Positions 6,660 through 54,072 of a DNA stretch of 64,000 nt are shown here, piece by piece. Under the pieces are notes generated by a model, which saw only the letters and a list, made by a program, of their open reading frames with translations, did not search any database and was not told the DNA's origin. Position 1 is the stretch's first letter. The number at the start of each line of letters is the position of its first letter. The stretch is from positions 62,001 through 126,000 of the forward strand of contig NZ_JAAOEN010000009.1 of assembly GCF_011320225.1 (NCBI RefSeq), read 5' to 3'. The position numbers were made by a program, and so were the translations under genes. This stretch comes from Phytoactinopolyspora limicola. Its GTDB lineage: Bacteria; Actinomycetota; Actinomycetes; Jiangellales; Jiangellaceae.

Positions 6660-6721
6660 GGAACTAGTGAAACATGCGCGTGTTCATCACGCGATCTGTT
6701 CATTATTCGGTAACAGGTGGG

Positions 6722-6761
6722 CAACTTTTGCTTGACGAAGGATCAAAAGTGCCTTTACGGT
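6722..6761 (+). promoter_or_regulatory. Promoter/operator of the sugar dehydrogenase-ABC operon
   Basis: A -35-like TTGACG (6732-6737) and a -10-like TACGGT (6756-6761) are 18 bases apart. The 16 bases at 6722-6737 are identical to 20382-20397, in the other ROK-flanked promoter. ACTTTTG (6724-6730) and CAAAAGT (6744-6750) form a perfect 7-base inverted repeat around the -35, as expected for a repressor site. The likely binder is the divergent ROK protein. Confidence 0.6.
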
Positions 6762-6768
6762 CCTCTGC

Positions 6769-37895: not shown

Positions 37896-38119
37896 TCGGT
37901 CTCGACGCGCGACCGAGACCGTTCTCGGGTCGAGCGGCCCGCGACGCCGCACCGTCGCCGACGCCGCACCCCCCGATACTAGACACCTGGCCTAAACGTA
38001 GGGCTCTGACCAGCGGAAATCTTGCGGGGAACGCGGCGACTCCCTACATTCACTCCTTGATCGGAGTCATCCGCACCGGTCTCGTCGTGCCCCACAAGGG
38101 CACCCACAAGGGAGACATC

Positions 38120-39844
38120 ATGTCGTGGTCTCATCGACCATCCGTTCTACCAGCGGTGATCGCAACAATGATCACGCTCGTCCTCGTGGTGCTCAGCGGC
38201 GTTCCAGCTGCTAGCCATGCGCCGAGCGGCGAGAGCCCGCCATCCTCGGCCGTCGCCTCGATCGCTGCGGCGGCGAGCATGCCGGTTCAGCCAGCAGCGA
38301 GCTCGGCATTACCCGATCCGTACAAGACAACTGAGTACAACGCGTCGCGACACGAGTACCGGCTTACGATCGATGGGGTCCGGCGGGACGTCGTGGCCTA
38401 TCTTCCGGTCCCGGAGAATCCGATGCTGGCGGTGGTTGACCGCCCCATTATCGTGCTTCTCCATGCTACCGGCGGCAACTACGGCCCGGACTCCTACAAG
38501 GGGATGATGGAGTTCCTGGCGAAGAACGGCTTCGTTGTGGTCGCGCCCACCTGGGACGCACACGCTTACAGCGTCGTCGACCAGAACGCCGACACCGCCT
38601 CCGAGGTGTATGGCTCGCCCGCCCGGGTGATCAAAACGGTCATCGACGACAGCTACCGCCGTTTCGAGGCGCACACCTTCTCCGATCAGGTGGTGCTGAT
38701 GGGGCACAGCGTCGGCGGCGCGGGTGTGGTTCGGGCGGCGGACGCCATCGGCAACACGTGGATCCATGACCGCCGGGTCCGGATCAAGTCCGTTGTCGCC
38801 ATGGCGCCAGCACCGAAGGACCGCGATATGCGCGAACGGCATGCCCTGGCCGGCAAGTCGTCGTCGTTCCTGGTCATGATGGTCGCCAAGGACGAAGACA
38901 TCCACGGCATCGGTAGCCCGGACAGCGTACGCGACACCGGCTTCAAGCTTTACGACGTGGCGGGGTCCGAAGAGAATCTCTCCGCCAACGCAGCAGCGCT
39001 GTACCCCGACAAGGATCTGCTCTTCATCAAGGGCGGATCGCACTCCACGTTCCGCGGCACCGATCCGTCGCTGTCCGGGACTATGTACAGCTACCGGCGT
39101 TTCGCGGCCGCATATGTGAACGCATATCTGCGCCGGCACGTCTACGGCGAGAAGGTGTACGACGCGTATCTTCTTGATGGTGTACGTTCGCCGTCGTCGC
39201 CGGACACCCTCGTGTACCGGCAGGCGCACAGCAGCAAGAACAAGCTGGTGGTGGAGAACTTCCAACGTGGCCAGGGCTCGACTGGGTCTTTCTACGGCGG
39301 CGGCTCCAGCAGCGTCGGCCGGATCATCAGTTCGTCCACCGCGCTGTCCTTCACCCGCGAGAACAGTCACCGGCTGACTGACTCGCCGCACGCTACCCGG
39401 GTCTTGGTGACGACGTGGAACACCGGTGCAACGCCCTACCTCGAGTTCGACTACGCCAATGATCAACGTGTCGACGTCAGCCAATACAAGTACCTCGGGA
39501 TCCGTATCGGGCAGATCCACAATCACCGGCACAACGAGGTGGACACCGGCAAGGACCTATCGGTGCGCCTGCTGACCATGTCGAACGGTAGCCGGGTGCT
39601 CAGTGATGGTGCTCGGATGCATGTGCCCTATCCGTTCCGCGAATGGGTGAGGCCGCAGGGGCAGGGCACGGCCGAAGCGACCAAGAGTGCGATGCACACG
39701 GTGATCATCCCGCTGGATAGCTTCGGCGCGGGCGTGAATCTGAAGAACGTCGACGGTCTGCGGATCTATCTGCCCGGCAAGGGGCAGGTGCAGATCGACA
39801 ACATCGAGTTCTTCGGTGAGCGCACGGTGGTGCCGGTCTACTGA
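38120..39844 (+). CDS. Secreted alpha/beta hydrolase with C-terminal CBM-like domain
   Basis: The product has 574 residues. The ATG at 38120 has AAGGGAGA upstream, and an earlier ATG at 38057 would hide the signal peptide. A Sec signal (hydrophobic 'VIATMITLVLVVLSGVPAAS') precedes a hydrolase domain with oxyanion 'IIVLLHATGGNYGPDSYKG' and nucleophile Ser197 in 'LMGHSVGGAGVVRAA', and a His in 'KGGSHSTFRG'. This is the dienelactone-hydrolase/polyester-hydrolase superfamily. The final ~190 residues ('FSFTREN...VQIDNIEFFGE', in parts) look like a galactose-binding/CBM11-like sandwich. It may be an extracellular polysaccharide or polyester esterase. Confidence 0.8.
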   Translation: MSWSHRPSVLPAVIATMITLVLVVLSGVPAASHAPSGESPPSSAVASIAAAASMPVQPAASSALPDPYKTTEYNASRHEYRLTIDGVRRDVVAYLPVPENPMLAVVDRPIIVLLHATGGNYGPDSYKGMMEFLAKNGFVVVAPTWDAHAYSVVDQNADTASEVYGSPARVIKTVIDDSYRRFEAHTFSDQVVLMGHSVGGAGVVRAADAIGNTWIHDRRVRIKSVVAMAPAPKDRDMRERHALAGKSSSFLVMMVAKDEDIHGIGSPDSVRDTGFKLYDVAGSEENLSANAAALYPDKDLLFIKGGSHSTFRGTDPSLSGTMYSYRRFAAAYVNAYLRRHVYGEKVYDAYLLDGVRSPSSPDTLVYRQAHSSKNKLVVENFQRGQGSTGSFYGGGSSSVGRIISSSTALSFTRENSHRLTDSPHATRVLVTTWNTGATPYLEFDYANDQRVDVSQYKYLGIRIGQIHNHRHNEVDTGKDLSVRLLTMSNGSRVLSDGARMHVPYPFREWVRPQGQGTAEATKSAMHTVIIPLDSFGAGVNLKNVDGLRIYLPGKGQVQIDNIEFFGERTVVPVY

Positions 39845-40164: not shown

Positions 40165-41370
40165 ATGCGTGGAGGAAAGCGCCGGGTGCTGGTGGCATAC
40201 GGCACCCGGCCGGAGGCGATCAAGCTGGCGCCGGTGGTGCGGGAGATCAGCCGCAGTCCATGGCTCGAGCCGGTGGTGGCGGTGTCCGGCCAGCATCGCG
40301 AGATGCTTGACCAGGTCAACGAACTCTTCGGGATCACCCCAGACATCGATCTGGACATCATCGCGCCCGGGCAGACGCTGACTCAGGTGACCAATCGAGC
40401 CCTGGACGGCTACTCGAACTACGTGGCAGCCGGTGAGTTCGACGCGGCGATCGTTCAGGGGGACACGACGACGGCGTTCGCGGCGGCGCTCGCGGCGTTC
40501 TACGCCCAGACTCACGTGGTCCACGTCGAGGCGGGACTACGCACCGGGCATATGTACTCCCCGTTCCCCGAGGAGATCAACCGGCGGCTGATCAGCCAGA
40601 TGGCCACCCTCCACTTGGCGCCCACCGGGATGAGCCGGGACAACCTGCTCGCCGAAGGGGTCGATGCCGGCGACATCACGGTGACCGGAAACACCGTGAT
40701 CGACGCGTTGACGCACGCGGCCGGGCTGCGTCGCCCCATCGGTAACGTGGAGGTGGACGGGGCGATCAGTGCCGGTCGGCCCATTTTGCTGGTGACGGCG
40801 CACCGGCGGGAATCGTGGGACACCGGGCTGGCGGCGATCGGGAACGCGGTCGCAGCGGTGGCCCGGGCCCACCCGGAAGTCCTGGTAGCCGTCCCGGTTC
40901 ATGCGAACCCGATAGTGCGTGAACGGTTGTTGCCGCCGATGGAAGGTATCCCGAACGTCGAGGTTCTCGAGCCTCTGTCCTACGGGCCGTTCTCTCATCT
41001 GCTCAGCCGGAGCGCGGTGGTTCTGACCGACTCCGGAGGCATCCAGGAGGAAGCACCCACGTTCGGGGTGCCGGTCCTGGTCACCCGGAACACCACCGAG
41101 CGGCCGGAAGCCGTCCAGGCTGGGACGGCCCGGCTGGTGGGGACCCAGTCCGGGGGGATCTTCAGCGCCGTGTCGAGAGCTCTCAGCCGGCCGGCGGCGG
41201 GGGCGCGATCCGCGGACGGCGCAGCCGCCATGGCGCCGGCCAACCCGTTCGGTGATGGCAAAGCCGCCGTGCGGACTAGAGCAGCGGTTGAGGCGTTGTT
41301 CGGCGTCGGACAGAGGCGGCCGGAGTTCACCCTGCCTGAACCGGTCTTGGCCGAGGCATACGCATCGTGA
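40165..41370 (+). CDS. wecB: UDP-N-acetylglucosamine 2-epimerase (non-hydrolysing)
   Basis: The product has 401 residues, the family length. Signatures are 'VLVAYGTRPEAIKLAPVV' (GTRPEAIK), 'VQGDTTTAFAAALAAFY', 'VVHVEAGLRTGHMYSPFPEE' (in the order HVEAGLRT...PFPEE), 'LVTAHRRESWDTG' and 'LTDSGGIQEEAPTFGVPVLV'. The enzyme interconverts UDP-GlcNAc and UDP-ManNAc in the cytosol, supplying ManNAc for surface glycans. It is the first gene of the exosortase operon, 39 bases ahead of the LPQTG mini-gene, which suggests that a ManNAc-containing glycan is part of this system. Confidence 0.93.
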   Translation: MRGGKRRVLVAYGTRPEAIKLAPVVREISRSPWLEPVVAVSGQHREMLDQVNELFGITPDIDLDIIAPGQTLTQVTNRALDGYSNYVAAGEFDAAIVQGDTTTAFAAALAAFYAQTHVVHVEAGLRTGHMYSPFPEEINRRLISQMATLHLAPTGMSRDNLLAEGVDAGDITVTGNTVIDALTHAAGLRRPIGNVEVDGAISAGRPILLVTAHRRESWDTGLAAIGNAVAAVARAHPEVLVAVPVHANPIVRERLLPPMEGIPNVEVLEPLSYGPFSHLLSRSAVVLTDSGGIQEEAPTFGVPVLVTRNTTERPEAVQAGTARLVGTQSGGIFSAVSRALSRPAAGARSADGAAAMAPANPFGDGKAAVRTRAAVEALFGVGQRRPEFTLPEPVLAEAYAS

Positions 41371-41409
41371 CCCGCCGGAACAGACTCCACGAGGGTTAAG
41401 GAGATACGC

Positions 41410-41574
41410 ATGTACGGGAACAATCCGCTGCCGCAAACCGGCTTCGCCGCCGGGCCGCTCGCGTTGCTGTTCAACGGTGCCAGCCTGATCGTTTATGTGC
41501 TGCTGGGGATGGCGCTGGTGGTGGCCGGCTTCGTGCTGATGCGCACCTACACCCATCAGCGTTCGGAGGCGTGA
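41410..41574 (+). CDS. 54-residue LPQTG/transmembrane mini-protein
   Basis: AAGGAGAT sits just before the ATG at 41410. The product starts MYGNNP and then has LPQTGF at residues 7-12, a single hydrophobic helix (about 20-45, including 'LIVYVLLGMALVVAGFVL') and a short tail ending MRTYTHQRSEA. It looks like a cell-wall sorting signal without a protein in front of it, and has no N-terminal signal peptide of its own. The exosortase GTG follows 4 bases after its stop, so the two are translationally coupled. It may be a membrane subunit or cofactor of the exosortase or glycosyltransferase; nothing similar comes to mind as characterised. Confidence 0.75.
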   Translation: MYGNNPLPQTGFAAGPLALLFNGASLIVYVLLGMALVVAGFVLMRTYTHQRSEA

Positions 41575-41578
41575 GACC

Positions 41579-42199
41579 GTGTCCGCCGCCACGACGCCGT
41601 CCCCGTCCCCGTCGCCATCGCCCGCCCGCCGGCGCCGCAAAGACCAGCCCGGACCGCTGATGGTGGCCGCTCGCCGGTTAATCGCGCTGATGCTCCTGGT
41701 GCTGGCGGTCTGGGCGATAGTGAACGAACAGGCCTTCCGCGCGGGTGAAGCTTGGGCGGTCTCCCACATCCTGGATGGCATCTTCGGGGTCAACAGCATG
41801 GCCGTCGCCGGTGAGCCGCTGTTCGTCTTTCAGGGGCGGGCGGGGAACGAACTCGGCTGGTCCGGTCTGCGGATCACGATGCAATGCACGGTACTGCTGT
41901 TCTTGGTGCCGACCCTGTTCGTCGCCGCGATGGCGTTGAACGGGCGCCGCGTCCCGGGCCGCCGGATTCTGCTCGCCACCACCGCGGCCGTCGGGCTACT
42001 GGTGGTGGCCAACCTCGCCCGCTGCGTGATGATCGCTCTCGCCATGAACCAGTGGGGCCGGGCCGGATACGAGTGGACCCACGTGTTGGTGGGCAGCATC
42101 GTGATGCTGGCCGCGGCGCTGGTTGCCGTGCTGGTCTTCGTCCGGCTGGGTTTCTTCGGCCGTCGTGACCGCCCGGGCCGGAGGGTGCAGCCGGCATGA
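41579..42199 (+). CDS. Exosortase/archaeosortase-family transpeptidase
   Basis: The product has 206 residues with four or five membrane helices. After a Pro/Ser and RRRRK N-terminus come hydrophobic spans at about 28-48, 98-119, 130-156 and 168-190. The catalytic triad of the family is in place and in order: Cys103 in 'ITMQCTVLLFLVP', Arg148 in 'VVANLARCVMIAL' and His168 in 'YEWTHVLVGS'. Exosortases cleave C-terminal sorting signals of secreted proteins at the membrane. The substrates are likely the three paralogues at 43701-46097. It starts at GTG 41579 and overlaps the glycosyltransferase by 4 bases. The protein is shorter than EpsH-type exosortases, as expected for the compact actinobacterial branch. 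Confidence 0.82.
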   Translation: MSAATTPSPSPSPSPARRRRKDQPGPLMVAARRLIALMLLVLAVWAIVNEQAFRAGEAWAVSHILDGIFGVNSMAVAGEPLFVFQGRAGNELGWSGLRITMQCTVLLFLVPTLFVAAMALNGRRVPGRRILLATTAAVGLLVVANLARCVMIALAMNQWGRAGYEWTHVLVGSIVMLAAALVAVLVFVRLGFFGRRDRPGRRVQPA

Positions 42200-43527
42200 T
42201 CCTCGGGGTTTTCAACGTCGCCGCGACGCTGGTCATCTGCCTTGCGGCCGGGTACTTCATCCTCACCATGGGAGCGGGGATCGCCACCCTGCGTCGGCAC
42301 GACACCCGGCTGCACGTCCAGGGGCAGGCGTCGTACGGCAAACCCCACGAGGACGCACCAAGCGAGTTGTATGTGTATTTCCTGGTGCCGTGTTTGAACG
42401 AGGCGGAGGTCATCGGCGGGACCGTCGCTGGGCTGATCGGCAATCCGAACGCGACGGTTGTGGTGGTCGACGACGGATCCGACGACGCCACCAGCGACGT
42501 CGCCCTGTCCCACGGCATTGGCGAAGTACAAGTGGTGCGTCGCAACCTCCCCGACGCGCGCAAAGGGAAAGGAGAGGCGCTGAACGCCGGGCTGGCCCGG
42601 ATCCGCGAACTGGTCAGCTACCGCGAACAGGACGAGAACCGGGTGATCGTGTGTGTGATGGACGCCGACGGCCGGCTCTCGGACAAGGCCCTCTCGTACG
42701 TTTTGCCGCTGTTCGACGAGGACGACGTCGGCGGCGTGCAGCTGGCGGTCCGGATCCGCAACCGGCACAACTTTCTCACCCGATTCCAGGACTTCCAGTT
42801 CTGGTCGATGTCGGCGGTCACCCAGTTCGGCCGGGAACGTACCGGCACCGTCAGCCTGGGCGGCAACGGCCAGTTCACCCGGCTCGTCGCGCTGAACCAG
42901 GTGGGGGAGAAGCCGTGGTCGAACTCGCTCACCGAAGACCTGGACCTGGCCGTGACCTTGGCGTTGCGCGGGTGGCGGTTGTCCACTACTCCGTTCGCCT
43001 CCGTTGACCAGCAGGGTGTGGACAAACTCGGGCTGCTGATCAAGCAGCGCACCCGGTGGTATCAGGGGCACATGCTCACCGCCCGGCGGCTGCCGGAGAT
43101 CTGGCGATCCCGGAAGTTGTCGCACGGCTCGGCGTTGGAGATGTCCGCCTACATCATGGTGCCGTGGCTGCTCGACCTGCCGTGGTCGATCCTGTACCAG
43201 TTCTGCATTCTCGGGCTGGCGGCCAACCACCAGGTGATGTTCGGGTTCGCGGACGGCCCGATCGGCCTGGTGTCGATCATCGTCGGCTGGTATGCGCTGG
43301 CGTTCGCGCCGGCTCTAGCGACGGGGTTCGTCTACCTGCGGCGGGACCGCACGGTGGGGTTCTTCCGGGCGATGGCGCTAGGGCACTCCTTCCTGGTGAT
43401 GAACTACGTCTCCTTCATCTGCGCGTGGCGGTCGCTGGCCCGGATCCTGCGGGGCGAGACCAGCTGGGACAAGACGGCCCGAAGCCGGGAACAACTCCCC
43501 GGCGCGGAAGCGGCCGGAACCGCTTAG
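42196..43527 (+). CDS. GT2-family processive-type glycosyltransferase
   Basis: The product has 443 residues. An N-terminal helix (about 5-30) is followed by a GT-A domain with DDG at 92-94 ('VVVVDDGSDDA'), DAD at 156-158 ('VCVMDADGRLS'), EDLD at 247-250 and the QRTRW motif at 284-288 (QxxRW). That combination is the hyaluronan/cellulose/poly-GlcNAc synthase class, using UDP-sugars at the inner membrane face. Three or four C-terminal helices after residue 310 would form the export channel. The ATGA overlap ties it to the exosortase. A dedicated glycosyltransferase with an exosortase suggests that the sorted proteins are glycosylated or attached to a glycan. Confidence 0.88.
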   Translation: MILGVFNVAATLVICLAAGYFILTMGAGIATLRRHDTRLHVQGQASYGKPHEDAPSELYVYFLVPCLNEAEVIGGTVAGLIGNPNATVVVVDDGSDDATSDVALSHGIGEVQVVRRNLPDARKGKGEALNAGLARIRELVSYREQDENRVIVCVMDADGRLSDKALSYVLPLFDEDDVGGVQLAVRIRNRHNFLTRFQDFQFWSMSAVTQFGRERTGTVSLGGNGQFTRLVALNQVGEKPWSNSLTEDLDLAVTLALRGWRLSTTPFASVDQQGVDKLGLLIKQRTRWYQGHMLTARRLPEIWRSRKLSHGSALEMSAYIMVPWLLDLPWSILYQFCILGLAANHQVMFGFADGPIGLVSIIVGWYALAFAPALATGFVYLRRDRTVGFFRAMALGHSFLVMNYVSFICAWRSLARILRGETSWDKTARSREQLPGAEAAGTA

Positions 43528-43700
43528 CGATGGCCGGCCGCGGTGGTGGGAGCAGGGGGAGCCGCGATGAAGGACGTATCGGGCGGCCGTGACCCGCCGG
43601 AGAGGGTGCGCTGGCGGCGCCCCGCTGGACGCTAGCGCCGCCAACGCTCTTCGCTCCGACAGACAACTCGCACCACACGTTGCGACGGAAGGAAGTATTG

Positions 43701-44447
43701 ATGAGACTAGCAACCCGCGCCGCCGCGGCAGCAGCCGTGAGCGCGGTTCTGGTCGGTATGAGCGCGCTGACCGCCAGCGCCGCCGACTTCGCCGGCTCGG
43801 CGACCGCCACGGACACGAACTCGTCGAACCTGTACGAGCACGTCACCCACCCTCCACTGCCTGGTGGCGGGGGTGCGTTGTGGGGAGGCGGTTCGCTGAT
43901 CTTCCCCGCTGAGCAGGACGGATCGTCCGGTGACGGAAACCAGGCGTATCCGTCGGTGGGGGCGATGCTGGAGGCACCGCGTCCGCTCTGCGCCGACGGC
44001 AGTCTTGCCGACGACGGCACGGTGACGGTCACCGTGTCGGTCCAGGTACGCAACGACGGTCCGAGCCAGGGTCGGGCCTACGTCGGCGGTCTGCGTCTCT
44101 ACGCCAACGGCGACGACGTGGTCAACCAGGACATCACCTTCTCGGCGCCGGTCGGACATCAGGAGACGCTGACCGTCTCCGCGCAGGTGCCGGCCGAAGC
44201 TCTGGAGTCCGGGGACATCGGCGTTCACCTGTCGACGGAGACCTACCACCAGCCCAGCGGCACTACCTACAACAGCGGCACCCAGTGGACGGCGGACCAG
44301 TTCAGCGCGACGTACGAGTACGGCGTCGGCGAGGACTGTGCCGACGACATCCCGGCGGTCGCCCCAGCTGTGGCCCTCGGGGCAGGTGTGCTCGCCCTCG
44401 GTGGCTATGGCCTGTTCCGGCGCCGCCAGGAGTCTCAGACCGCCTGA
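43701..44447 (+). CDS. Secreted exosortase substrate candidate 1
   Basis: The product has 248 residues from the ATG at 43701 (GGAAGGAAG upstream; a TTG at 43680 is rejected). The signal peptide runs to about residue 28 ('VLVGMSALTASAADFAGS'). The mature part is a beta-rich domain with 'DGTVTVTVSVQVRNDGPSQG' and 'GHQETLTVSAQVPAEALESG'. The C-terminus has 'EDCADDIPAVAPAVALGAGV' then a hydrophobic stretch and RRRQESQTA, the pattern of a three-part sorting signal. It shares the whole architecture with the next two genes. Its function is unknown, probably a surface-layer or appendage-like coat protein. Confidence 0.75.
   Translation: MRLATRAAAAAAVSAVLVGMSALTASAADFAGSATATDTNSSNLYEHVTHPPLPGGGGALWGGGSLIFPAEQDGSSGDGNQAYPSVGAMLEAPRPLCADGSLADDGTVTVTVSVQVRNDGPSQGRAYVGGLRLYANGDDVVNQDITFSAPVGHQETLTVSAQVPAEALESGDIGVHLSTETYHQPSGTTYNSGTQWTADQFSATYEYGVGEDCADDIPAVAPAVALGAGVLALGGYGLFRRRQESQTA
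44373..44413. repeat. 41-bp stretch identical to 45231-45271
   Basis: The sequence encoding the hydrophobic part of the C-terminal sorting signal is identical over 41 bases between substrate genes 1 and 2, while flanking codons differ. This suggests recent duplication or gene conversion limited to the anchor segment. Confidence 0.75.
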
Positions 44448-44549
44448 CCGCCCCCCGTGAGGACGCGGTGGTGGCGTTCCCCTGGATCAGCACCGGCGCC
44501 ACCACCGCCCCTCAGATGCCGGGTGTCAAAACTCGAAAGGACAGACTCA

Positions 44550-45305
44550 ATGAAAACCATGATGCGGACGGCGGCGGCACTGGCCGCCGGGGCCGTGCTG
44601 GTCGGGGTGAACGTGCTCAGCGCGAGCGCCGCCGACTTCGCCGGAACCCCTACGGCGTCGGACGCCAACCCGGAAGACTACCGGCCGCAGGCCGACTACC
44701 CGTCGCACGCCGCCCTGCCTGGCGGCGCCCAGAGTTTATGGGACGGCGGCGCGGTGGTGTATCCAGCGGACTCGGATGCGTCAGCGGGTGACAACAGCCA
44801 GGTTTATCGCGGCGTCGCGGCCACCTTGGCAGCGCCGCGCCCGGTCTGTGCCGACGGCTCGTTCGCCGATGACGGCACGGTCACCGTGACGGTGAGTGTC
44901 CGGGTGACCAACAACGGGCCGAACGACGGCGTGGGTTACGTGGGCGGACTTGCCACCTACGACGGTGCCGGAACAACGAGCGGTCAGCAAATAGTGGCCG
45001 ACGCCCCCGCCGGACATCAGGAGACACTCACCGTCACCCGGACGGTTCCGGCCGCCGACCTGGCCGCGGGCGAGTTCGGCATCCATTTGTCGACCGAGAC
45101 GTATCACTCGCCAACCGGTACCACGCGCAACACGGGAACCCAGTGGACCGCTGACCAGTTCGTGGCCAGCTACGAGTTCGGTGTCGGTGAGGACTGCGCC
45201 GACGACATCCCGATCGTGGCCCCAGCCGTCGCCCTCGGGGCAGGTGTGCTCGCCCTCGGTGGCTATGGCCTTTTCCGGCGGCACCAGCACAACCACGCTG
45301 CCTGA
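44550..45305 (+). CDS. Secreted exosortase substrate candidate 2
   Basis: The product has 251 residues from the ATG at 44550 (AAAGGA ahead; the frame is open to 44457 but the extra 31 residues lack a start context). The signal peptide is 'ALAAGAVLVGVNVLSASAAD'. The body mirrors the other two: 'DDGTVTVTVSVRVTNNGPND', 'GHQETLTVTRTVPAADLAAG', 'STETYHSPTGTTRNTGTQW'. The end is 'EDCADDIPIVAPAVALGAGV', a hydrophobic helix and RRHQHNHAA. It is 102 bases downstream of substrate 1. Confidence 0.75.
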   Translation: MKTMMRTAAALAAGAVLVGVNVLSASAADFAGTPTASDANPEDYRPQADYPSHAALPGGAQSLWDGGAVVYPADSDASAGDNSQVYRGVAATLAAPRPVCADGSFADDGTVTVTVSVRVTNNGPNDGVGYVGGLATYDGAGTTSGQQIVADAPAGHQETLTVTRTVPAADLAAGEFGIHLSTETYHSPTGTTRNTGTQWTADQFVASYEFGVGEDCADDIPIVAPAVALGAGVLALGGYGLFRRHQHNHAA

Positions 45306-45350
45306 CCGCTCCTACAGCACGAGACCCAAGAATCTGAAAGGACCTCCTTG

Positions 45351-46097
45351 ATGAGAACTATGATGCGGGCGGCAGCGGCACTGGTCGCCGGGACCGCTCT
45401 GGTTGGCATGAGCGCACTCGGTGCAAATGCAGCCGATTTCGCCGGAACACCGACGGCTGTCGACACCGATCCGGACTTGTTGGAGCTGTCGCCCTCTCAC
45501 ACGAGCCTTCCGGGTGGTGGCCAGGACTTATGGGACGGAAACGCCCTGGTGTTCCCGGCCGACCCGGATGCATCGGCGGGCGCGTCGAACCAGGTGTACC
45601 GGACGGTCGCGGCCACGCTGGAGGCGCCGCGTCCGATGTGTGAGGACGGCACGTTCGCCGACGACGGCACGGTAACTGTCACCGTGAGTGTGCACGTGAC
45701 CAACGACGGTCCCAGAGGCGGGGCCGGCTATGTCGGCCGGTTGGGCGTTTACCACGATGACGCGCTGGTGGCGGCCGATCCGATCACCACGGATGCCCCC
45801 GCTGGCCATCAGCAGATGCTGACGGTCACCACCCAGGTGCCAGCGGCCGATCTCGCGGCTGGCGACGTGGCGGTCTTGCTGGCCACCGAGACGTACCACT
45901 CGCAGGACGGGCAGACCGCCAACAACGGGACCCAGTGGACCGCGGAGCAGTTCAGCGCGGCGTACGAGTTCGGTGTTGGTGAGGATTGCGCCGACGACAT
46001 CCCGATCGTGGCCCCAGCTGTGGCGGCCGGTCTTGGCCTGGCCGCGTTGGCCGGGGTCGGCGTGCACCGGATGCGCTCCCGCAACCAGGCCGACTGA
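45351..46097 (+). CDS. Secreted exosortase substrate candidate 3
   Basis: The product has 248 residues from the ATG at 45351 (GAAAGGACC ahead). The signal is 'ALVAGTALVGMSALGANAAD' and the body is the same beta-rich domain with 'DGTVTVTVSVHVTNDGPRGG' and 'GHQQMLTVTTQVPAADLAAG'. The C-terminus keeps 'EDCADDIPIVAPAVAAGLGL', but its hydrophobic part and RMRSRNQAD tail differ from those of copies 1 and 2. The cleavage region is thus more conserved than the anchor, as expected if a protease reads it. It is followed by the acyltransferase after 108 bases. Confidence 0.75.
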   Translation: MRTMMRAAAALVAGTALVGMSALGANAADFAGTPTAVDTDPDLLELSPSHTSLPGGGQDLWDGNALVFPADPDASAGASNQVYRTVAATLEAPRPMCEDGTFADDGTVTVTVSVHVTNDGPRGGAGYVGRLGVYHDDALVAADPITTDAPAGHQQMLTVTTQVPAADLAAGDVAVLLATETYHSQDGQTANNGTQWTAEQFSAAYEFGVGEDCADDIPIVAPAVAAGLGLAALAGVGVHRMRSRNQAD

Positions 46098-46205
46098 CCG
46101 GCCGACTATGACCGCGGTGGCGGCGGGGCTCCGTCCCAATTCGACCCGCCGCCACCGCTTCCATCAGCCAGTGCTGTCCAGCGTGATCCAGGGGGAACAA
46201 GCTCG

Positions 46206-48596
46206 ATGACGGCGGCGGACCAACGCCAAGCACCAGCCCGGACGTACTACGGCGCGATCGACGGACTGCGCGGGGTGACGATCCTGTCCATCCTCGTGTA
46301 CCACACCGGCCTGTACGAGAACGGCCTGTTCGGTGTGGACATGTTCTTCGTGCTGTCCGGCTTCCTGATCACGTTGATGTTGCTGCGCGAGTTCGGCCGC
46401 AACGGGCGGATCTCGCTGCGCCGCTTCTACGTGCGCCGGGCCAAGCGGCTGTTGGTGCCGCTCGTCGTGACTCTGGCGGGGACGGCGTTGATGGTGCTGG
46501 CCTGGGGGCGGTACGAGGAAGTGGAGCGGGCCGGGCAGCAAGGGCTGGCGTCGTTGTTCTACGTCGCCAACTGGGAGCAGATCTATCAGGGGGAGGCGTA
46601 CTGGTCGAGTTTCGGGGTGCCGGGGCCGCTGGCGCACATGTGGTCGCTGGCGGTGACCGAGCAGTTCTATCTGGTGTGGCCGCCGCTGCTGCTCGCGGTG
46701 ACGCTGCTGGCGCGGCGGCGCCTGGTGTTGTGGCTGGGTGTGGCGACGACGGTCTTGTTCCTGGTGGCGTCGCTGGTCCCGATCATGTCCTACGACGGCA
46801 CTAATGCCGACCGCCTCTACCTGGGCACCGACAGCCACGGTATGGGGTTCCTGGCCGGTGGACTGGCCGCGTTGATCCTGGCGCTGGTGCACGGCCATGT
46901 GAACCGGGCAGGTGCGGAACGCCAACATCGGCAGGTGCCGGGCTGGGTGCTCAATGTGTCCGCTGTGGTTCTGGTAGCCAGCATCGTCGTCCTGTCGATT
47001 CGGACGTCGTCGTACCACGAGCCCTGGCTGTACCAGGGTGGTTTCAGCGTGATCGCGCTGCTGGGCGCCGCGCTCACGTTGACCCTGGTGCGCGACGACA
47101 CCGTGATCGGCCGGATCTTCTCGGCCAAGCCGCTGGTGGAGATCGGCAAGATCTCCTACGCGCTGTTCCTGGTGCACGTGCCGATCTTCTGGGCGGTGCA
47201 GAAGAACGCCACCGATCCGAGCCCGACGTCGTTGTTGCTGTACGGCGTGCCGTTGTCCGTTGCGGTGGCCGCGTTCCTGCACCACATCGTCTCCGAACCG
47301 GCCCGGATCCGACGATGGAACCTCACGGGCCGCAGTGTGGTTAGCGTCCTGATGGCCGGTGTGGTGGCGGGCTGGGTCGCGTTGCCGAGTATGGCGCAGA
47401 CGACGGCTGGTGATGGCGACGTCGCGGTGCTGACCCTGGGTGACTCGTTGAGCCACGACTTCTCCGACGCGCTGGCCACCTACTATCCCGACCATTTCAC
47501 GGTCACCGACGGCGGCCTCGGCGGCTGCGGTGTGGCCTCCCCGGAGCTGACCCGCACGCCGCGTTCTGGTGAGCTGGACGTGCCGAACGGCTGCCTGCCG
47601 TGGGAGGAGCGGTGGCGGGACTGGATCCAGACCGCCGAACCCGACGTCATCGTGATCAACCTGGCGTGGGACGGTGTTGAGCAGCTGGTGGACGGTAGCT
47701 GGCTGGGTGCGTGTGACGACGCGTACCGCGACCACTATCGGGAGCGGCTCCAGGTGATGAGTGACCTCGCCGCCCCACCATTGGGTGAACGGTCCGTCCT
47801 GGTGACGAACTCGCGGGTGGACACGCCGGTGAACAGCGCCGCCGAGGCGCGGTGCCATTCGGTGCTGATCGAGGAGTTCGTCGAAGGGCAGGACCGGATC
47901 GATCTGCTGGACCTGAACGGGTTCGTTTGCGACGACGACGCCGGCACCTGCCACGAGACAACACCGGACGGCGCGCTGATGTATAGCGACAAGGTGCACT
48001 TCACCGAGTCGGGCAAGCAGCACATCAGCACGTGGCTGGCCACCGCGGTGAGCGCGGCCGCCGGTGTGGACCCGCCCGGGGAACCCGGCGGCGCCCTGGT
48101 GCGGCGGGCACCGACCCGGCCACCGGCCGCGACCGTCGCGGCGATCGCCGACGTGATCGGGGTCCGCGAGGGCGAGGTGTGTGACGACACTCCGATCAGC
48201 GAGTTCGACACCGTCGACGCGGCCTTCGAGGCCGACCGGACCGGCTACTTCGTCTGCGGCGGCGCACGCTGGCGGGTGCAGATCCACACCTACGCCGACG
48301 ACGCGCTCGCCCACCACGCGGCGAAGAGCCTGATCGAGCAGCTCGGCGACGCCGGCTGGGTCAACGTCGAAACCGGCGACGCCGCCCGCCGGGTGCGGTA
48401 CGACGCGGACAGCGGCCGCGTGATCGGGATGCTGCGCACCAACTTCAACGTCACCGTCGTGGAGCGGACCACCGACGCCGGGCTGGACGTCGCCGACGTG
48501 AAGACCACACCAGCCATCAAACGTCTCGATGGTGTGTGGGCCGAGCTCGAGGCTACCCAGACGAAGGCAGGAGCCCGAGCGCCCGAGCCGCCGTGA
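46206..48596 (+). CDS. OafA/YrhL-type acyltransferase fused to SGNH domain
   Basis: The product has 796 residues. The N-terminal Acyltransferase_3 domain (about 10-370) has ten membrane helices and the motifs 'IDGLRGVTILSILVYHTGLY', 'LFGVDMFFVLSGFLITLMLL' and 'RRFYVRRAKRLLVPLV'. The SGNH domain (about 405-620) shows block I 'VLTLGDSLSHDFSDALA', 'VIVINLAWDGVEQL' and the Ser/His partner block 'YSDKVHFTESGKQH'. Residues about 640-796 form an extra extracellular domain of unknown type. These proteins move acetyl groups across the membrane onto cell-surface polysaccharide, consistent with modification of the glycan made by this locus. The last 44 bases overlap the converging LuxR gene. Confidence 0.88.
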   Translation: MTAADQRQAPARTYYGAIDGLRGVTILSILVYHTGLYENGLFGVDMFFVLSGFLITLMLLREFGRNGRISLRRFYVRRAKRLLVPLVVTLAGTALMVLAWGRYEEVERAGQQGLASLFYVANWEQIYQGEAYWSSFGVPGPLAHMWSLAVTEQFYLVWPPLLLAVTLLARRRLVLWLGVATTVLFLVASLVPIMSYDGTNADRLYLGTDSHGMGFLAGGLAALILALVHGHVNRAGAERQHRQVPGWVLNVSAVVLVASIVVLSIRTSSYHEPWLYQGGFSVIALLGAALTLTLVRDDTVIGRIFSAKPLVEIGKISYALFLVHVPIFWAVQKNATDPSPTSLLLYGVPLSVAVAAFLHHIVSEPARIRRWNLTGRSVVSVLMAGVVAGWVALPSMAQTTAGDGDVAVLTLGDSLSHDFSDALATYYPDHFTVTDGGLGGCGVASPELTRTPRSGELDVPNGCLPWEERWRDWIQTAEPDVIVINLAWDGVEQLVDGSWLGACDDAYRDHYRERLQVMSDLAAPPLGERSVLVTNSRVDTPVNSAAEARCHSVLIEEFVEGQDRIDLLDLNGFVCDDDAGTCHETTPDGALMYSDKVHFTESGKQHISTWLATAVSAAAGVDPPGEPGGALVRRAPTRPPAATVAAIADVIGVREGEVCDDTPISEFDTVDAAFEADRTGYFVCGGARWRVQIHTYADDALAHHAAKSLIEQLGDAGWVNVETGDAARRVRYDADSGRVIGMLRTNFNVTVVERTTDAGLDVADVKTTPAIKRLDGVWAELEATQTKAGARAPEPP

Positions 48597-51114
48597 TCGC
48601 TTCGTGCCGGTTCCGCGCATGCAGCTTGCGGTAGATGCTCCGAGTGGTGGACTTCAGCGTGTTCACCGACACGAACAGGGTTGTGGCGATTCTCGGCAGC
48701 GTCGCATCGGATACGAGTGCGGTCAGCACCTCCAGTTCCCGGTCGGACAACTCCGGGATGCCTTCGTGATTGGCCCGGTCCAGCGTCGCGATCTCCGCGT
48801 TCAGCCCCGGCAGGTGGCTGGACGGTGGGGGAGAGAGATGCCCGGCGATGACGGCGGCGCAGAGCCGCGGCGCGAGCAAGATAGGCCGTCGGCTGTCGAC
48901 GTGTTGCAGCAGCGCGAGGAGGCTGTGGAAATGCGGCTGGGCATCCTGGCCGAGCCGCAACGCGCATTCCGCCTGCAACGCGTAGAGATCGGCTCGAACG
49001 GTGCGGGGGACGACGCTGTCGCTGGTCAACTCGGCGAGTTCCCGGCTGGCCGGCGCCGCGTCGTCCATGGCCAGCCGGGCCCGGGCCCGGGTCACCACCA
49101 GCATGGCGGTGTGCCCGGGTGGCGCGGTGACGTCGTCCAGCGCGGCGAGTGCCGCCTTCGGGTCCTGTTGTGACAGCCGCACCTGGGCGCGGGCGATCCC
49201 GGCTAGGAAGGCGTTGAACGGGAGCTGATTGGTGGTGTATTCCGGGCCGCACAACAACAGGGCCTGCTCGCCCGGGATCGGGTCGCGGGTCAGCAGGGCG
49301 AGGGTGGACCATGCCAACGCCAGCCGCGCGGCGGGAGGTTCGGCGTCACCCTTCATCCGGTCCAAGGCTTCGTGCAGGATGGCCGCCACGCCCGTGGTGC
49401 GGCCGCGTTCTAGAGCGAGCAGGCCGAAGGTAATGGACAGGTGATCGGTGAACTGGTAGTCGGCCAACCCGCTGTCCTGTACCAGCGCCAGCGCTGAATC
49501 TGCCTCGTGCTGGGCAGCGGCGATCTCTCCCCGCATAACCAGGGTGTAGGCCAGCAGAACAGCACAGTTGGCGCTGAACCAGGTGGCGCGGTTGTTGTGG
49601 GCCATGGTCCGGGCCGAGCGCAGGGCGATCTCGGCGTTGGCCAGGTCGCCTTCGGCCAGCCGCGATGCGCCGATCTGTGCGGTGAGGAAGACGATGCGGG
49701 TGTGGTGTTCGTTGCGTTCGTCGCTCGAAATGGCATTAACAAGGTCGAGTGCGACCCGTTCGTGTTCGTTCGCCCGGTGGATGTCTCCCTCGAACCGGGC
49801 CAGCATCATGTTCAGCCCGTGGTACGTCAACAGCGGACCGCTGAACACGTCGTGGTCGAGCAGTGCGCCGGCTTGCGCTAGCCGGAACCGGAACGCCGCG
49901 ACATCGAAGTTGGGTGGGCGAAGCGACGTGACGGCCGCGATCAGCAGCAGTGCCGGATCGTTGGCGAGGACCTCCTCGCTGACCGCGGCGACCGCCTCGT
50001 TGACGACAGGACCGGTGCGGGCGAACGGGATCAGGTCGCTGCCCCAGCGTTCGCGGAGCACCTCGGCGACGGCGTGGTCGAGGGTGGCGTCGACCAGGTA
50101 CGGGAGAGCCTCCGCGGTGCGGCCGGCCTCGACCAGCATCCGGGCCACCTGGCTGACGACCTCGCCGCGCCGGCCCGGGCGCTTGATGTCGAGACTGGCC
50201 AGCAGGCTCCGCCGCAGTGGTTCGAGCAGCCGCCAGGTTCCCGTCGCTGGCGCGTAGACCACCAGTCCGGTGTCCGCCCAGGCGTCGATGAGCTGGGTCG
50301 GGCTGGTGGGCGGGTTGTCCGGTTCGGTTGGCTGGTCGACCGGTTCGGCGAGTGCGGCGGCGAGGGTAACGGGATCGAATTGTGGTAGGACGGCCGCGTT
50401 GGTGAGCGCCGGGAGTTCCACGGCGGGAACCACCCTGATGACCTCGTCGCGGATGAATCGTTCAACAGCGTCGTTGCGGTGGTGACCACCCGTGTGGGTG
50501 GGGTGGCTACGGCGGGTAGTGTCCCGGTGCTCGCGCAGAGTGGCGTCGACGAGGGCCGGCCAGCCGTCGGTGGTGCGATGCAGCTCCGCCTTCTCATCCG
50601 GGGTGAGCCGCACCCGTCGGACAGCGGCGAGAGCGCTCACCTCCTCGTCGGTGAAGAGGAGGTCCTTGATGGTGACGATCCGGGCGCTGCCGTCGAGCGT
50701 CAGGCCGGAGGTTACCGCCACCAGTGGTGTCCTGGTGGCGACCACTAGCCGTGCGCCGAACCCGCGGACAAGGTTGACCAGTTCGCCCCATGCGTCCGTG
50801 TCGGCGCACTCGGCCTGGTCGAGCAGGATCACCTCAGCGATGTGCTCGCCGCGGGTCAGCCGTTCGGCGCAGCTGGCAACGTCAGCGCTGGAGGTGAGCC
50901 ATGTTGTCCGTTCCGATCCGATCTCCTGGGCGAGCTGATCGAGTAGCACCGACTTGCCGAGACCGGCCGGGCCTTGGAGCACGGTGATGGAGGCGGACGT
51001 GGTGGCCAATGGCTGAAGGAGCCGCCTCCTGGCGAGCAAGCGGGGGGATGTCGCGCTGCCCCGAACCAATACTTCTCCCCCCAGGAAGGCCGTGGCCTGC
51101 CAGGCGCCACGCAT
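48553..51114 (-). CDS. Large ATP-binding LuxR-family regulator (MalT-like) 1
   Basis: The product has 853 residues. The P-loop GPAGLGKS is at 48-55, with a STAND-type ATPase region ('AEVILLDQAECADTDAWGEL' as Walker B surroundings) up to about 330, then TPR-like helices. The C-terminal LuxR HTH is at about 785-845 ('ELSDRELEVLTALVSDATLP' then 'RIATTLFVSVNTLKSTTRSI'). Such LAL/MalT proteins are ATP-driven activators switched by a ligand. It is transcribed away from the second LuxR gene, with 201 bases between their starts. Its 3' end overlaps the acyltransferase, so it may sense or regulate the surface locus, which is inference. Confidence 0.87.
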   Translation of the reverse strand: MRGAWQATAFLGGEVLVRGSATSPRLLARRRLLQPLATTSASITVLQGPAGLGKSVLLDQLAQEIGSERTTWLTSSADVASCAERLTRGEHIAEVILLDQAECADTDAWGELVNLVRGFGARLVVATRTPLVAVTSGLTLDGSARIVTIKDLLFTDEEVSALAAVRRVRLTPDEKAELHRTTDGWPALVDATLREHRDTTRRSHPTHTGGHHRNDAVERFIRDEVIRVVPAVELPALTNAAVLPQFDPVTLAAALAEPVDQPTEPDNPPTSPTQLIDAWADTGLVVYAPATGTWRLLEPLRRSLLASLDIKRPGRRGEVVSQVARMLVEAGRTAEALPYLVDATLDHAVAEVLRERWGSDLIPFARTGPVVNEAVAAVSEEVLANDPALLLIAAVTSLRPPNFDVAAFRFRLAQAGALLDHDVFSGPLLTYHGLNMMLARFEGDIHRANEHERVALDLVNAISSDERNEHHTRIVFLTAQIGASRLAEGDLANAEIALRSARTMAHNNRATWFSANCAVLLAYTLVMRGEIAAAQHEADSALALVQDSGLADYQFTDHLSITFGLLALERGRTTGVAAILHEALDRMKGDAEPPAARLALAWSTLALLTRDPIPGEQALLLCGPEYTTNQLPFNAFLAGIARAQVRLSQQDPKAALAALDDVTAPPGHTAMLVVTRARARLAMDDAAPASRELAELTSDSVVPRTVRADLYALQAECALRLGQDAQPHFHSLLALLQHVDSRRPILLAPRLCAAVIAGHLSPPPSSHLPGLNAEIATLDRANHEGIPELSDRELEVLTALVSDATLPRIATTLFVSVNTLKSTTRSIYRKLHARNRHEAITAARALGLLPSSG

Positions 51115-51222: not shown

Positions 51223-51315
51223 TCCCCGAAAGACCTCGACGATGACATCACGACGGCGCGGTCCCCATGTCGTGGCCAGTGGTAGAGCCAATCGACACAT
51301 TGGGTGGGAGACACA

Positions 51316-54072
51316 ATGACGGAGATTGAGAACGGGGTCGACGTGGTGGGGCGGGACGACGAACTGAACCTGCTCGGCGGCTTGGTGGAGCCGCTGGCGG
51401 CGGGGTCGGGCGGTTCGATCGTCGTCGATGGGCCACCGGGTATCGGCAAAACAGCTGTACTGCGAGCGTTCGTGGCGCGGGTGCAGGCGCAGCCGGCCCC
51501 GGACGACGACACGACGCCGGTGTCGTTCACCACGGCCTCGATGGATGAACAAGAGTGGCCCTACTCTGGGCTGCACCTGGTGCTGTCCGGAATCAGCGCC
51601 GTGATCGACTCGCACCTGCACGACGCACTGATGACCGAACTGCGTGAGCTGTCCGTAGGCCTTGGCGACCACACCAGCGCACATCAGGTGTCGATGCGGC
51701 TGCTGTCGGTGTTCGGCCAGGTGAGCCGGCCCATGTACGTGGTGGTGGACGACGCACATCGGTTGGACTCGTCGTCGCAGCAGGTGCTCGGCTTCGTCGC
51801 CCGGCGGCTCGGTTCGGTGCCGGTGGCCATGGTCTTCGGAGCGGATCTGTCGACCAAGCCGGTTCCTTTCGAGGCGTTGACGAGCCTGTACCTCGGCGGG
51901 CTGAGCGAACCGGGGGCACGGACACTGCTGGAAAACGCCGCTGGAGCGCCGTTGCCGGCCCGGGTCACCCGCCAGATCGTGGCCGAGGTGGGTGGACATC
52001 CCCAAGCGCTGCTCGACGTCGTCGACCGGATCCCGGCCGACCAGCTCACCGGGCGGGTCGAGCTCGACGTATACCTGCCGGACTCACCCGTTGTGCGGCG
52101 GCTGTGCCTGCCCGAGCTCGACCACCTCGGCGAGGCCGAGCGCCGGGTGCTGCTGGTCGCCGCGGCAAGCCAGGACCGGCGCCTGGCGCCACTACTGGAC
52201 GCGTTGCGGGAGCAGGACGAGGCCGTCGTGAAGTGGATGATCGACCACTATCTCGTCAGCGCCGACGGCACCTTCACCTTCCGCCGGCCCGCCATCGCTT
52301 CCGTTATGTGGCGGGCCGCCACCCACTCGCAGCAGCTTTGGGCACACGAGGCGCTGGCCCGGGCATACCGGACCAGCGGCGACGATCAGTGGTTGTGGCA
52401 CAGTGCGCAGACATCTCCCGGCGTCGCCGAGGAACTGGCCGGTGCCCTCTATGCCGCCGCGGGTGCGAGCGCTCGGGCGGCCAAGCTCGAGCAGGCTCGG
52501 GCCTGGGCCCGGCAGGCGGTCCGGTTGACGCCGCCCGGAAAGCGGCGAGCCGAACGGCTGCTGTTCGCCGGTCAGCTCGCCCTGCTCGCGGGGTACTTCG
52601 ACGAGGCGGTCCGGCTCGCGCGGGAACGGTTCAGCGAACCGATGACCGCGCAGCAACGTGGTGACCTCGCCCTGCTGGAGATCCGGGCGCGTCAGCTCGT
52701 GGACGGCGAGGTACCGTCCGGTGTCGTGACCCGGCACGCCGAGGAGCTGGCCGGAACGGACCCGAGCCGGGCCGCGCAGCTGAACCTGGCCGCCGCCCTG
52801 GGGTTCGCCCGGCGCCTGGAGTCCGCCGAAGCGGGCCGTTTCCTGACGCTCGCGCAGCAGGCCGAGAACGTGGACACCACCACCGCCGGGATGCTGCGGT
52901 ACACCGAGGCCGCCGTGGCGTCGCTCCGAGGTGAGCATGACATGTCGATCAAGCTGATCGAGGGGGCCGAACCGCTGGGCGACACCTTTGCCGAGGCCGA
53001 ACGGCACCTGACCCATGTGACCGTCCTGGTTCGAGCCGGCGCGTACGCCGAGGCGCGGCAACTGCTCACCGGCCTCGTCCACGACCCCATTCTGGGCGCG
53101 AGCGCGCTCGTGACGGGGTGGGCGTATGCGGTGCGAACCCTCCTGGAAATCCGCGCCGGTGACATGAATGCGGCTGGGACAGCGGCCAAGGCGTGGGAGA
53201 ACGCCGGTGCTACAGGGTTGTCGAACGCTGTTGTGCCCGCCTGCATGATCCGTGTGCACGCGCTGCTCGGAGAGACCGAGCTGGCGTGGGCCGCCCGCCG
53301 CCGGGCACTCGACCGGGCCCGGCGGCACGGCGACTCGTGGGTGAACGCCTTGGTGGCAGCCGAGACGGGGGCGCTGTTGTTGACTCTGGGCCGGGTCGGT
53401 GAAGCAGTGGCGACCCTTGGTGCGGCGCGTTGCTACGCCGTGGAGCATCCCGATCCGGCGATGTTCGCGACTGAACCGGACTACATCGAGGCCTGTGTCC
53501 GCAACGGCGAACATGAGCGTGCCGTCGCCGCCCTCGAAGTGTTCGAGGAACGGGTCATCGCCGTCCCCACCGCGTGGGCCCACCACACGTTGGCCCGCTG
53601 CGCGGCCCTGGTGAGCGCGCCGGAGCCGTCGGTACCGTTGTTCGAGGAGGCCATCACCACACCCGCTGACGGGGTCTCCCCGGTTGAGCTGGCCCGCACC
53701 ATGATCTGCCTGGGGGAGCGGTTGCGTCGGCTCGGTCACCGGATCGACGCCGGCCGGTGGCTGCGGCAGGCGATGGCCGTGGCTGAGTCCATCGGTGCCA
53801 CGGCGCTCGTCGCACATGCTCAGGAGGAGATACGTGCCACCGGCCAGGGCCCCGTCGTCGATGTGGCCACGATCAGTGGGCTCACCCGCGCGGAACGGCG
53901 GGTGGCCGCTCTTGTCGCGGCCGGGCGGCGCAACCGGGAGATCGCCGCCGAGTTGTACGTATCGGTCCGGACCGTCGAGACCCATCTCGGCCGGATCTAC
54001 CGCAAGACGGGTATCGGTTCGAGGGCCGAGCTCGCCAGTTTGGCCGCGGAGACGGCTGAACCCCGACGTTGA
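51316..54072 (+). CDS. Large ATP-binding LuxR-family regulator (LAL) 2
   Basis: The product has 918 residues from the ATG at 51316, with GGGAG before it (GTG 51304 is possible). 'VVGRDDELNLLGGLV' is the typical LAL opening; P-loop GPPGIGKT is at 39-46, Walker B 'PMYVVVDDAHRLDSSSQQ' follows, and TPR-like helices fill the middle. The C-terminal LuxR HTH is 'LTRAERRVAALVAAGRRNRE' then 'IAAELYVSVRTVETHLGRIY'. It ends 19 bases before the converging ECF sigma gene. It is divergent from LuxR regulator 1, and the two may regulate each other. Confidence 0.88.
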   Translation: MTEIENGVDVVGRDDELNLLGGLVEPLAAGSGGSIVVDGPPGIGKTAVLRAFVARVQAQPAPDDDTTPVSFTTASMDEQEWPYSGLHLVLSGISAVIDSHLHDALMTELRELSVGLGDHTSAHQVSMRLLSVFGQVSRPMYVVVDDAHRLDSSSQQVLGFVARRLGSVPVAMVFGADLSTKPVPFEALTSLYLGGLSEPGARTLLENAAGAPLPARVTRQIVAEVGGHPQALLDVVDRIPADQLTGRVELDVYLPDSPVVRRLCLPELDHLGEAERRVLLVAAASQDRRLAPLLDALREQDEAVVKWMIDHYLVSADGTFTFRRPAIASVMWRAATHSQQLWAHEALARAYRTSGDDQWLWHSAQTSPGVAEELAGALYAAAGASARAAKLEQARAWARQAVRLTPPGKRRAERLLFAGQLALLAGYFDEAVRLARERFSEPMTAQQRGDLALLEIRARQLVDGEVPSGVVTRHAEELAGTDPSRAAQLNLAAALGFARRLESAEAGRFLTLAQQAENVDTTTAGMLRYTEAAVASLRGEHDMSIKLIEGAEPLGDTFAEAERHLTHVTVLVRAGAYAEARQLLTGLVHDPILGASALVTGWAYAVRTLLEIRAGDMNAAGTAAKAWENAGATGLSNAVVPACMIRVHALLGETELAWAARRRALDRARRHGDSWVNALVAAETGALLLTLGRVGEAVATLGAARCYAVEHPDPAMFATEPDYIEACVRNGEHERAVAALEVFEERVIAVPTAWAHHTLARCAALVSAPEPSVPLFEEAITTPADGVSPVELARTMICLGERLRRLGHRIDAGRWLRQAMAVAESIGATALVAHAQEEIRATGQGPVVDVATISGLTRAERRVAALVAAGRRNREIAAELYVSVRTVETHLGRIYRKTGIGSRAELASLAAETAEPRR

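Follow-up and report, generated by a model that had tools for sequence, protein, structure and literature searches.

An exosortase of Phytoactinopolyspora limicola with candidate CTERM substrates, adjoining putative polysaccharide genes and a GT2-linked L[PA]xTG mini-protein

What does an exosortase sort in a Gram-positive actinobacterium, to what would its products be fixed, and does a small LPQTG protein encoded next to it belong to the same machinery? These questions arise from a locus at positions 40165 to 48596 of a 64,000-nucleotide stretch of the Phytoactinopolyspora limicola genome (Actinomycetota, Jiangellaceae; assembly GCF_011320225.1, contig NZ_JAAOEN010000009.1, positions 62,001 to 126,000 of the forward strand), hereafter called the window. 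A sequence-only reading had described the locus as a self-contained sorting and glycan-modification system made up of a UDP-GlcNAc 2-epimerase (WecB), a 54-residue mini-protein, an exosortase, a GT2 glycosyltransferase, three secreted paralogues and an acyltransferase of the OafA-SGNH type, and it had assigned the mini-protein to the exosortase. Each of these genes proved to be an open frame where it had been placed (Table 1), and the reading frames of the exosortase and the GT2 overlap by 4 bases. With moderate confidence, we interpret the locus as an exosortase/CTERM sorting module joined to genes for a synthase-dependent polysaccharide, with the mini-protein on the GT2 side. For Gram-positive actinobacteria it offers a candidate enzyme-substrate pair, the exosortase and an IPxVAP tail, and genes that possibly make the acceptor glycan; the literature passages at hand on bacterial exosortases name no established acceptor.

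The exosortase exceeds the cut-offs of both superfamily models, with 38.5 bits against TIGR04178 (cut-off 23) and 25.9 bits against PF09721 (cut-off 25.7). Cys103, Arg148 and His168 follow one another in the expected order within a multi-helix membrane protein, and an alignment of 14 exosortases, the one in the window among them, shows no variation at E57, T100, C103, N145, R148, H168 and G172. Its AlphaFold2 model is helical, with a mean predicted local distance difference test score (pLDDT) of 90.6. Comparison with the PDB gave no fold match at E ≤ 0.001 (best 0.21), so that the protein is left without a structural template. The nearest named models are those of exosortases S, R and P, and the protein stays below the cut-off of every NCBIfam type (XrtS, 94.3 of 145 bits; XrtR, 86.2 of 150; XrtP, 49.7 of 200; XrtG by TIGR03110, 12.6 of 102.75). 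Eight exosortases from other loci likewise fall short of the XrtS, XrtR and XrtP cut-offs, and among the matches listed from the open-licence literature no description of these three types was recognised by title or start of abstract. A six-frame search of the window's own genome with PF09721 returned no match at E ≤ 0.001, and a plasmid collection searched with the exosortase none either. For the three paralogues no PEP-CTERM match was listed at E ≤ 1, and the core of their tails reads IP-x-V-x-P. This supports, as had been proposed, a putative actinobacterial exosortase of the TIGR04178 type with a non-PEP signal, which would probably remove a tail common to several secreted proteins so that these can be fixed at the cell surface.

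The paralogues are 59-65% identical in pairs and all end in GEDCADDIPxVAP, a helix and a basic tail. The signal first proposed is indeed common to them; its DCADD part is specific to the window paralogues, and the part that recurs across loci is the proline core right before the helix. The paralogue family occurs in one of 22 genomes of the order, that of the window itself, and paralogues without an exosortase were not seen among these genomes. A fourth tail match in the same genome lies on another contig (E 3.3e-7 with tail model A3) and belongs to a secreted protein of ~530 residues that ends DPDDIPIVAPAVA...RRRR and carries a Big_9/cadherin-like domain. It shares the DDIPIVAP tail with the window paralogues and matches them nowhere outside the tail; over 494 residues it is 39% identical to a protein encoded within an exosortase operon of Jiangella. 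Since this signal-bearing protein is encoded elsewhere, the description of the locus as self-contained is not supported. The tail is a portable signal to judge by its place on unrelated protein bodies, and it has the marks of a real sorting signal, being tripartite, common to unrelated proteins and, if incompletely, a follower of the enzyme (9 of 12 carriers at E ≤ 0.005).

Carriers of the exosortase were sought in the genus with the window protein and in the class with the XrtS model. The genus yielded 1 carrier among 5 genomes, the order 3 among 22 and the class 10 among 393. The three in the order are the window's own genome (G000), G014 of the same family and G016 of the same genus as G014, and at E ≤ 1e-6 tail model A3 matched exactly these among the 22 genomes, the best match elsewhere having E 4.4e-4. 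The unlinked fourth match in the own genome is non-circular evidence. A second model, A5, was built from six rows of the window genome and two Jiangella genomes, with no row from the Promicromonospora family, and was run on 200 genomes of that family, 12 of which carry the exosortase at E < 1e-27 (G465 and G537, with E 1e-4, were scored as negative). At E ≤ 1e-4 it matched at 14 places in 5 of the 12 carriers and in none of the 188 others, for which a hypergeometric estimate, ignoring kinship among the five, gives about 3e-7. Relaxing the threshold to E ≤ 0.005 brings matches in 9 of the 12 carriers and 5 of the 188 others. In carrier G434 a secreted protein ending PIPVA...RRR adjoins the GT2 and was missed by A5.

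A wider sample came from a GT2 scan of the genome_contigs collection (84,980 species), in which 79 loci were kept of 451 relatives. Together with loci from earlier searches and the window these bring the number of distinct GT2 loci to 86, of which 30 have an exosortase no more than 6 kb away and 56 have none in that range; several loci may come from one species, and the count leaves out L012 and L017, duplicates of L025 (Jiangella endophytica) and L045, and L020, which has no GT2 match. A tail finder flagged 20 of the 30 exosortase loci and 11 of the 56 others. A proline core before the helix, judged by an uncalibrated reading, is present in 17 of the 20 and in none of the 11; L019, L039 and L043 are the flagged loci not counted, and L013 and L018, read by hand, add two more. 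Examples are IPLVAP, VPMVAP, VPLASG and APLFG, with the common core x-P-[LIMA], in which V, I or T usually fills position x (three loci have A, L037 has S and L013 has F). The counts in the order and in the Promicromonospora family support a concentration of the tail in exosortase-bearing genomes. That the locus has its own substrates agrees with both sequence and co-occurrence, the cleavage itself being a step that we infer.

The GT2 carries DADG, TED and QRTRW motifs, which we take to mean a synthase of the processive type. It scores 85 bits against the PgaC/IcaA model, far below the cut-off of 422, and 285.3 of 520 bits against NF053846, the XrtP-associated glycosyltransferase, the nearest named model; two GT2s from other loci also stay under the latter cut-off. 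In 24 of the 30 exosortase loci a WecB gene is found no more than 7 kb from the GT2. A relative of the OafA-SGNH protein (Acyl_transf_3, 113 bits; SGNH, 42 bits) is encoded up to 9 kb away in 7 of the 30, the window being one, versus 0 of 56 others, so that the adjoining glycan-modification genes first noted in the window recur beyond it. These genes probably make a sugar polymer, which the OafA-SGNH protein would O-acylate. Most of the gene set has relatives in loci of Jiangella, Promicromonospora, Cellulosimicrobium and Oerskovia, and the L[PA]xTG-plus-helix pattern of the mini-protein is rare away from the GT2, being found in 4 of 5804 short open reading frames more than 4 kb distant (one of them a genuine mini-protein, that of L027); the grouping is thus more than chance.

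In the mechanism that we propose, the three paralogues and the unlinked ~530-residue protein would be exported and stall by their C-terminal helix, and the exosortase, via Cys103, would cleave near the proline core before that helix. The new C-terminus would most likely be transferred to an acceptor in the envelope. WecB would supply an N-acetylhexosamine donor, the GT2 may make and export a polysaccharide or glycolipid, and this glycan, acylated by the OafA-SGNH protein, would be the most likely acceptor or matrix. The mini-protein would cross the membrane once, N-out, and would either be anchored, probably by a housekeeping sortase, or serve as a small GT2 subunit.

The mini-protein is the surprise of the locus. 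It begins MYGNNPLPQTGF and consists of a Met-Tyr start, LPQTG, a helix and a basic tail; no signal peptide was seen on it. In size and layout it resembles the LAXTG small proteins of NF058583, whose family listing gives neither a function nor a link to GT2, but it reaches only 21.1 bits of the cut-off of 65, and the best of 14 relatives 40.2. Against the LPXTG model TIGR01167 (cut-off 15.9) it scores 10.5 bits; among the same relatives those of L012 (16.7), L022 (15.9), L083 (18.0) and L229 (21.7) reach the cut-off, that of L046 scores 12.5 and nine are unlisted. Of the 30 exosortase loci, 25 have a mini-protein no farther than 4 kb from the GT2, as do 9 of the 56 others. In the five exosortase loci without one nearby, it is fused in frame to the exosortase (L016), lies farther off (L027) or was not found (L019, L039, L043). 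Met-Tyr starts, or Val-Tyr from GTG, occur in 22 of the 25 and 1 of the 9, with the start-calling script favouring such starts wherever available. Among the matches listed from the open-licence literature, no description of this mini-protein was recognised by title or start of abstract.

Such proteins also go with a GT2 outside the exosortase loci. In the class sample, the mini-protein model matched 15 of 393 genomes at E ≤ 1e-7, namely the eight exosortase genomes of this group, six of which had supplied model rows, and seven without the enzyme. One of these seven (G248) was dropped because its match lies within a 2773-residue frame. The remaining six short matches, and that of G445, which was inspected among weaker exosortase-free matches (E ≤ 0.01), all lie directly beside a GT2 of another kind (7 of 7), the GT2s of L227 and L191 being identified by likeness to other GT2s. 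In L225-L230 and L191, whose genomes gave no exosortase match, L[AP]xTG proteins of ~45-62 residues stand directly beside PgaC- or NodC-like GT2 genes. The exosortase model also found nothing in 17 genomes with loci holding the mini-protein and this GT2, or the GT2 alone, eight of them with a mini-protein beside this GT2; it did match in the Promicromonospora family. Loci in Dactylosporangium and its relatives combine mini-protein, GT2 and WecB with a DUF2334-type protein. Because mini-proteins also adjoin GT2 genes where the genome gave no match to an exosortase, the mini-protein appears as a partner of the GT2 and the exosortase as the add-on, and we read it as belonging to the GT2 side rather than as specific to the exosortase.

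Its adjacency to several kinds of GT2 would also suit a small accessory subunit of the synthase with an unprocessed L[PA]xTG motif, in analogy to the role of IcaD and PgaD. Eight Streptomyces loci (L028-L030, L032-L035, L057), in which only Met-Tyr starts were sought, have a single-helix small protein with that start near the GT2 start, lacking L[PA]xTG. The motif is, however, kept in all 25 mini-proteins from exosortase loci and in all nine from other loci of the same GT2 group, as found by a finder trained on proteins that carry it. Sortases (PF04203), which could therefore act on the mini-protein, occur in 26 of 27 genomes tested, the exception being a metagenome-assembled genome, and with this near-universal presence they decide nothing as a discriminator for its processing. 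LAXTG is counted among accepted sortase motifs in the part of an Actinoplanes study at hand (PMC13251363). We regard the unprocessed subunit as possible, if somewhat doubtful.

The assignment of the mini-protein to the exosortase, as a dedicated substrate or subunit read by the enzyme at L[PA]xTG in the manner of a sortase, draws on the same adjacency in the 30 exosortase loci and on a pattern search in which 22 of 33 records (two duplicate pairs included) have a mini-protein no farther than 2.5 kb from the exosortase. Strong matches, at E ≤ 1e-10 in the Promicromonospora family, also track the enzyme, with 10 of 12 exosortase genomes and none of 188 others; five of the ten supplied model rows, and 5 of 7 remain after their removal. 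Weaker matches are widespread, with 179 of 200 genomes having some at E ≤ 0.01, and many fall within long frames. In L016, a metagenome-assembled genome, an LPYTG mini-protein and the exosortase even share one open frame (6614-7312, plus strand), which could reflect a single-base or assembly error, since the two genes overlap in different frames in L046. The mini-proteins beside GT2 genes in exosortase-free genomes argue against this assignment, which we consider unlikely.

Could the exosortase merely proteolyse the tails, with the glycan genes forming an independent neighbouring cluster? The 56 of 86 loci in which the GT2 occurs without an exosortase would allow this. When the class was searched starting from the exosortase, however, it adjoined the GT2 in all eight loci of the group (of the ten carriers, G053 and G060 had been excluded as a different type by eye, with PIG-L-like neighbours), and in the window the two genes overlap. 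Moreover, a DUF2334-type secreted protein, a relative of the one in L083, lies near the GT2 in 37 of the 56 loci without an exosortase and in none of the 30 with one. From this split the GT2 seems to have two alternative partners that never share a locus in the sample. Pfam assigned both secreted proteins tested, those of L083 and L055, to DUF2334, and DUF2334-type proteins near the GT2 were seen in exosortase-free loci among L055-L099. An independent glycan cluster therefore strikes us as improbable. Least credible is that the exosortase is a chance neighbour of three paralogues that serve as ordinary sortase substrates, for although the window's own genome has four sortase genes, the paralogue tails lack L[PA]xTG and stay below the cut-off of the LPXTG model (paralogue 1, 11.2 of 15.9 bits; no match listed for paralogues 2 and 3), and tail matches track the exosortase whereas sortases are near-universal in the tested genomes.

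Several observations weigh against a sorting module coupled to a polysaccharide module. Close relatives of the GT2 in Streptomyces stand in loci without an exosortase match, and none was found anywhere in five such genomes (four Streptomyces, one Kitasatospora), so that the GT2 does not need the enzyme. The order-wide result with A3 is partly circular, as the carrier genomes supplied rows to the model. Several of the five genomes matched by A5 are close relatives (G396 and G397 are strains of Cellulosimicrobium cellulans), and their counts are therefore not independent. At E ≤ 0.005, three of the 12 carriers (G398, G417 and G434) lack a tail match and five of the 188 non-carriers have one, with a limited number of candidates scored per genome. 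The structure model of a paralogue is of low confidence (mean pLDDT 53) and thus points to no function of the sorted proteins. Cleavage, attachment or transfer, topology, the polysaccharide and its role as acceptor are all parts that we infer.

GspA, a large protein, is reportedly the wall-anchored protein that LcpA glycosylates in Actinomyces oris. In the substrate of LcpA, the literature offers a precedent for glycan attachment to a wall-anchored actinobacterial protein (PMC6381275); LcpA differs in being a phosphotransferase. We read the locus as a variant of the exosortase/CTERM and glycosyltransferase scheme, comparable to XrtG of Firmicutes. The XrtG system of Lactiplantibacillus, as a passage of PMC12854382 describes it, comprises a Firmicu-CTERM protein, an exosortase and two glycosyltransferases, and thus likewise joins an exosortase, a dedicated CTERM protein and glycosyltransferases in a Gram-positive bacterium. 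It belongs to another phylum, the window exosortase stays far below the XrtG cut-off, and that passage mentions no WecB, acyltransferase, mini-protein or IPxVAP tail. The PEP-CTERM/EpsH system shares with the window a tripartite tail with a proline motif and a link to exopolysaccharide genes, going by the part of PMC1569441 that treats it; the window tails lack the PEP motif and the host lacks an outer membrane. The same source, as far as it was available, reports no PEP-CTERM in actinomycetes.

We read the GT2-linked L[PA]xTG mini-protein as the most novel part of the locus. Its recurrent pairing with GT2 is a testable route to how synthase-made polysaccharides stay on the cell wall. A bolder idea, to which we give little weight, is that L[PA]xTG mini-proteins, which often start with Met-Tyr, are a general and hitherto unrecognised anchor for GT2-made polysaccharides in Actinobacteria. 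A housekeeping sortase would link the mini-protein to peptidoglycan, its short outer peptide would carry or capture the glycan, and an exosortase, where present, would join proteins with an IPxVAP tail to this same anchor or to the glycan, both enzymes then acting in series on one wall-bound glycoconjugate.

Table 1. Features of the locus, with positions in the window.
Feature	Position	Strand	Basis or remark
WecB, non-hydrolysing UDP-GlcNAc 2-epimerase	40165..41370	+	TIGR00236, 393.9 bits (cut-off 210)
54-residue LPQTG mini-protein	41410..41574	+	MY start, LPQTG, helix, basic tail; GT2-associated family
Exosortase/archaeosortase-family membrane protein, putative cysteine protease/transpeptidase	41579..42199	+	TIGR04178, PF09721, C103/R148/H168
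GT2 membrane glycosyltransferase	42196..43527	+	DADG, TED, QRTRW motifs
Secreted paralogue 1	43701..44447	+	Signal peptide by eye, C-terminal sorting tail
Putative sorting tail of paralogue 1, final 40 residues	44325..44444	+	VGEDCADDIPAVAP, helix, RRR
Secreted paralogue 2	44550..45305	+	Paralogue comparison
Putative C-terminal sorting tail of paralogue 2	45183..45302	+	Tail alignment
Secreted paralogue 3	45351..46097	+	Paralogue comparison
Putative C-terminal sorting tail of paralogue 3	45975..46094	+	Tail alignment
OafA-type acyltransferase fused to SGNH domain	46206..48596	+	PF01757 and PF19040
LuxR-family (MalT-like) regulator, possible regulator of the locus	48553..51114	-	PF00196

LuxR genes related to that of the window occur in 8 of the 30 exosortase loci, three of these eight having supplied the queries, versus 1 of the 56 others. 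LuxR-family regulators flank the exosortase loci of the window, L012, L013 and L021, and the window has a second one at 51304-54072 (plus strand). Directly 5' of WecB lies a gene for an alpha/beta-hydrolase-like protein (38057-39844, plus strand), which was not noticed in the related loci read. L022, L023 and L040 hold a second exosortase in the same locus; those of L022 and L023 adjoin a secreted protein ending PPVPA...RRR, with a Big_9 domain in L022. L019 and L020, the loci of the excluded G053 and G060, have an exosortase-family protein of another type, with PIG-L-like, WecB-like and glycosyltransferase genes by eye and no mini-protein found; L019 was nonetheless kept among the 30 exosortase loci. 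Finally, the genome that encodes the unlinked ~530-residue protein contains, at L130:13192-13551 (minus strand), a low-complexity tandem repeat that reads as (MLTWMRM)n and is probably non-coding.

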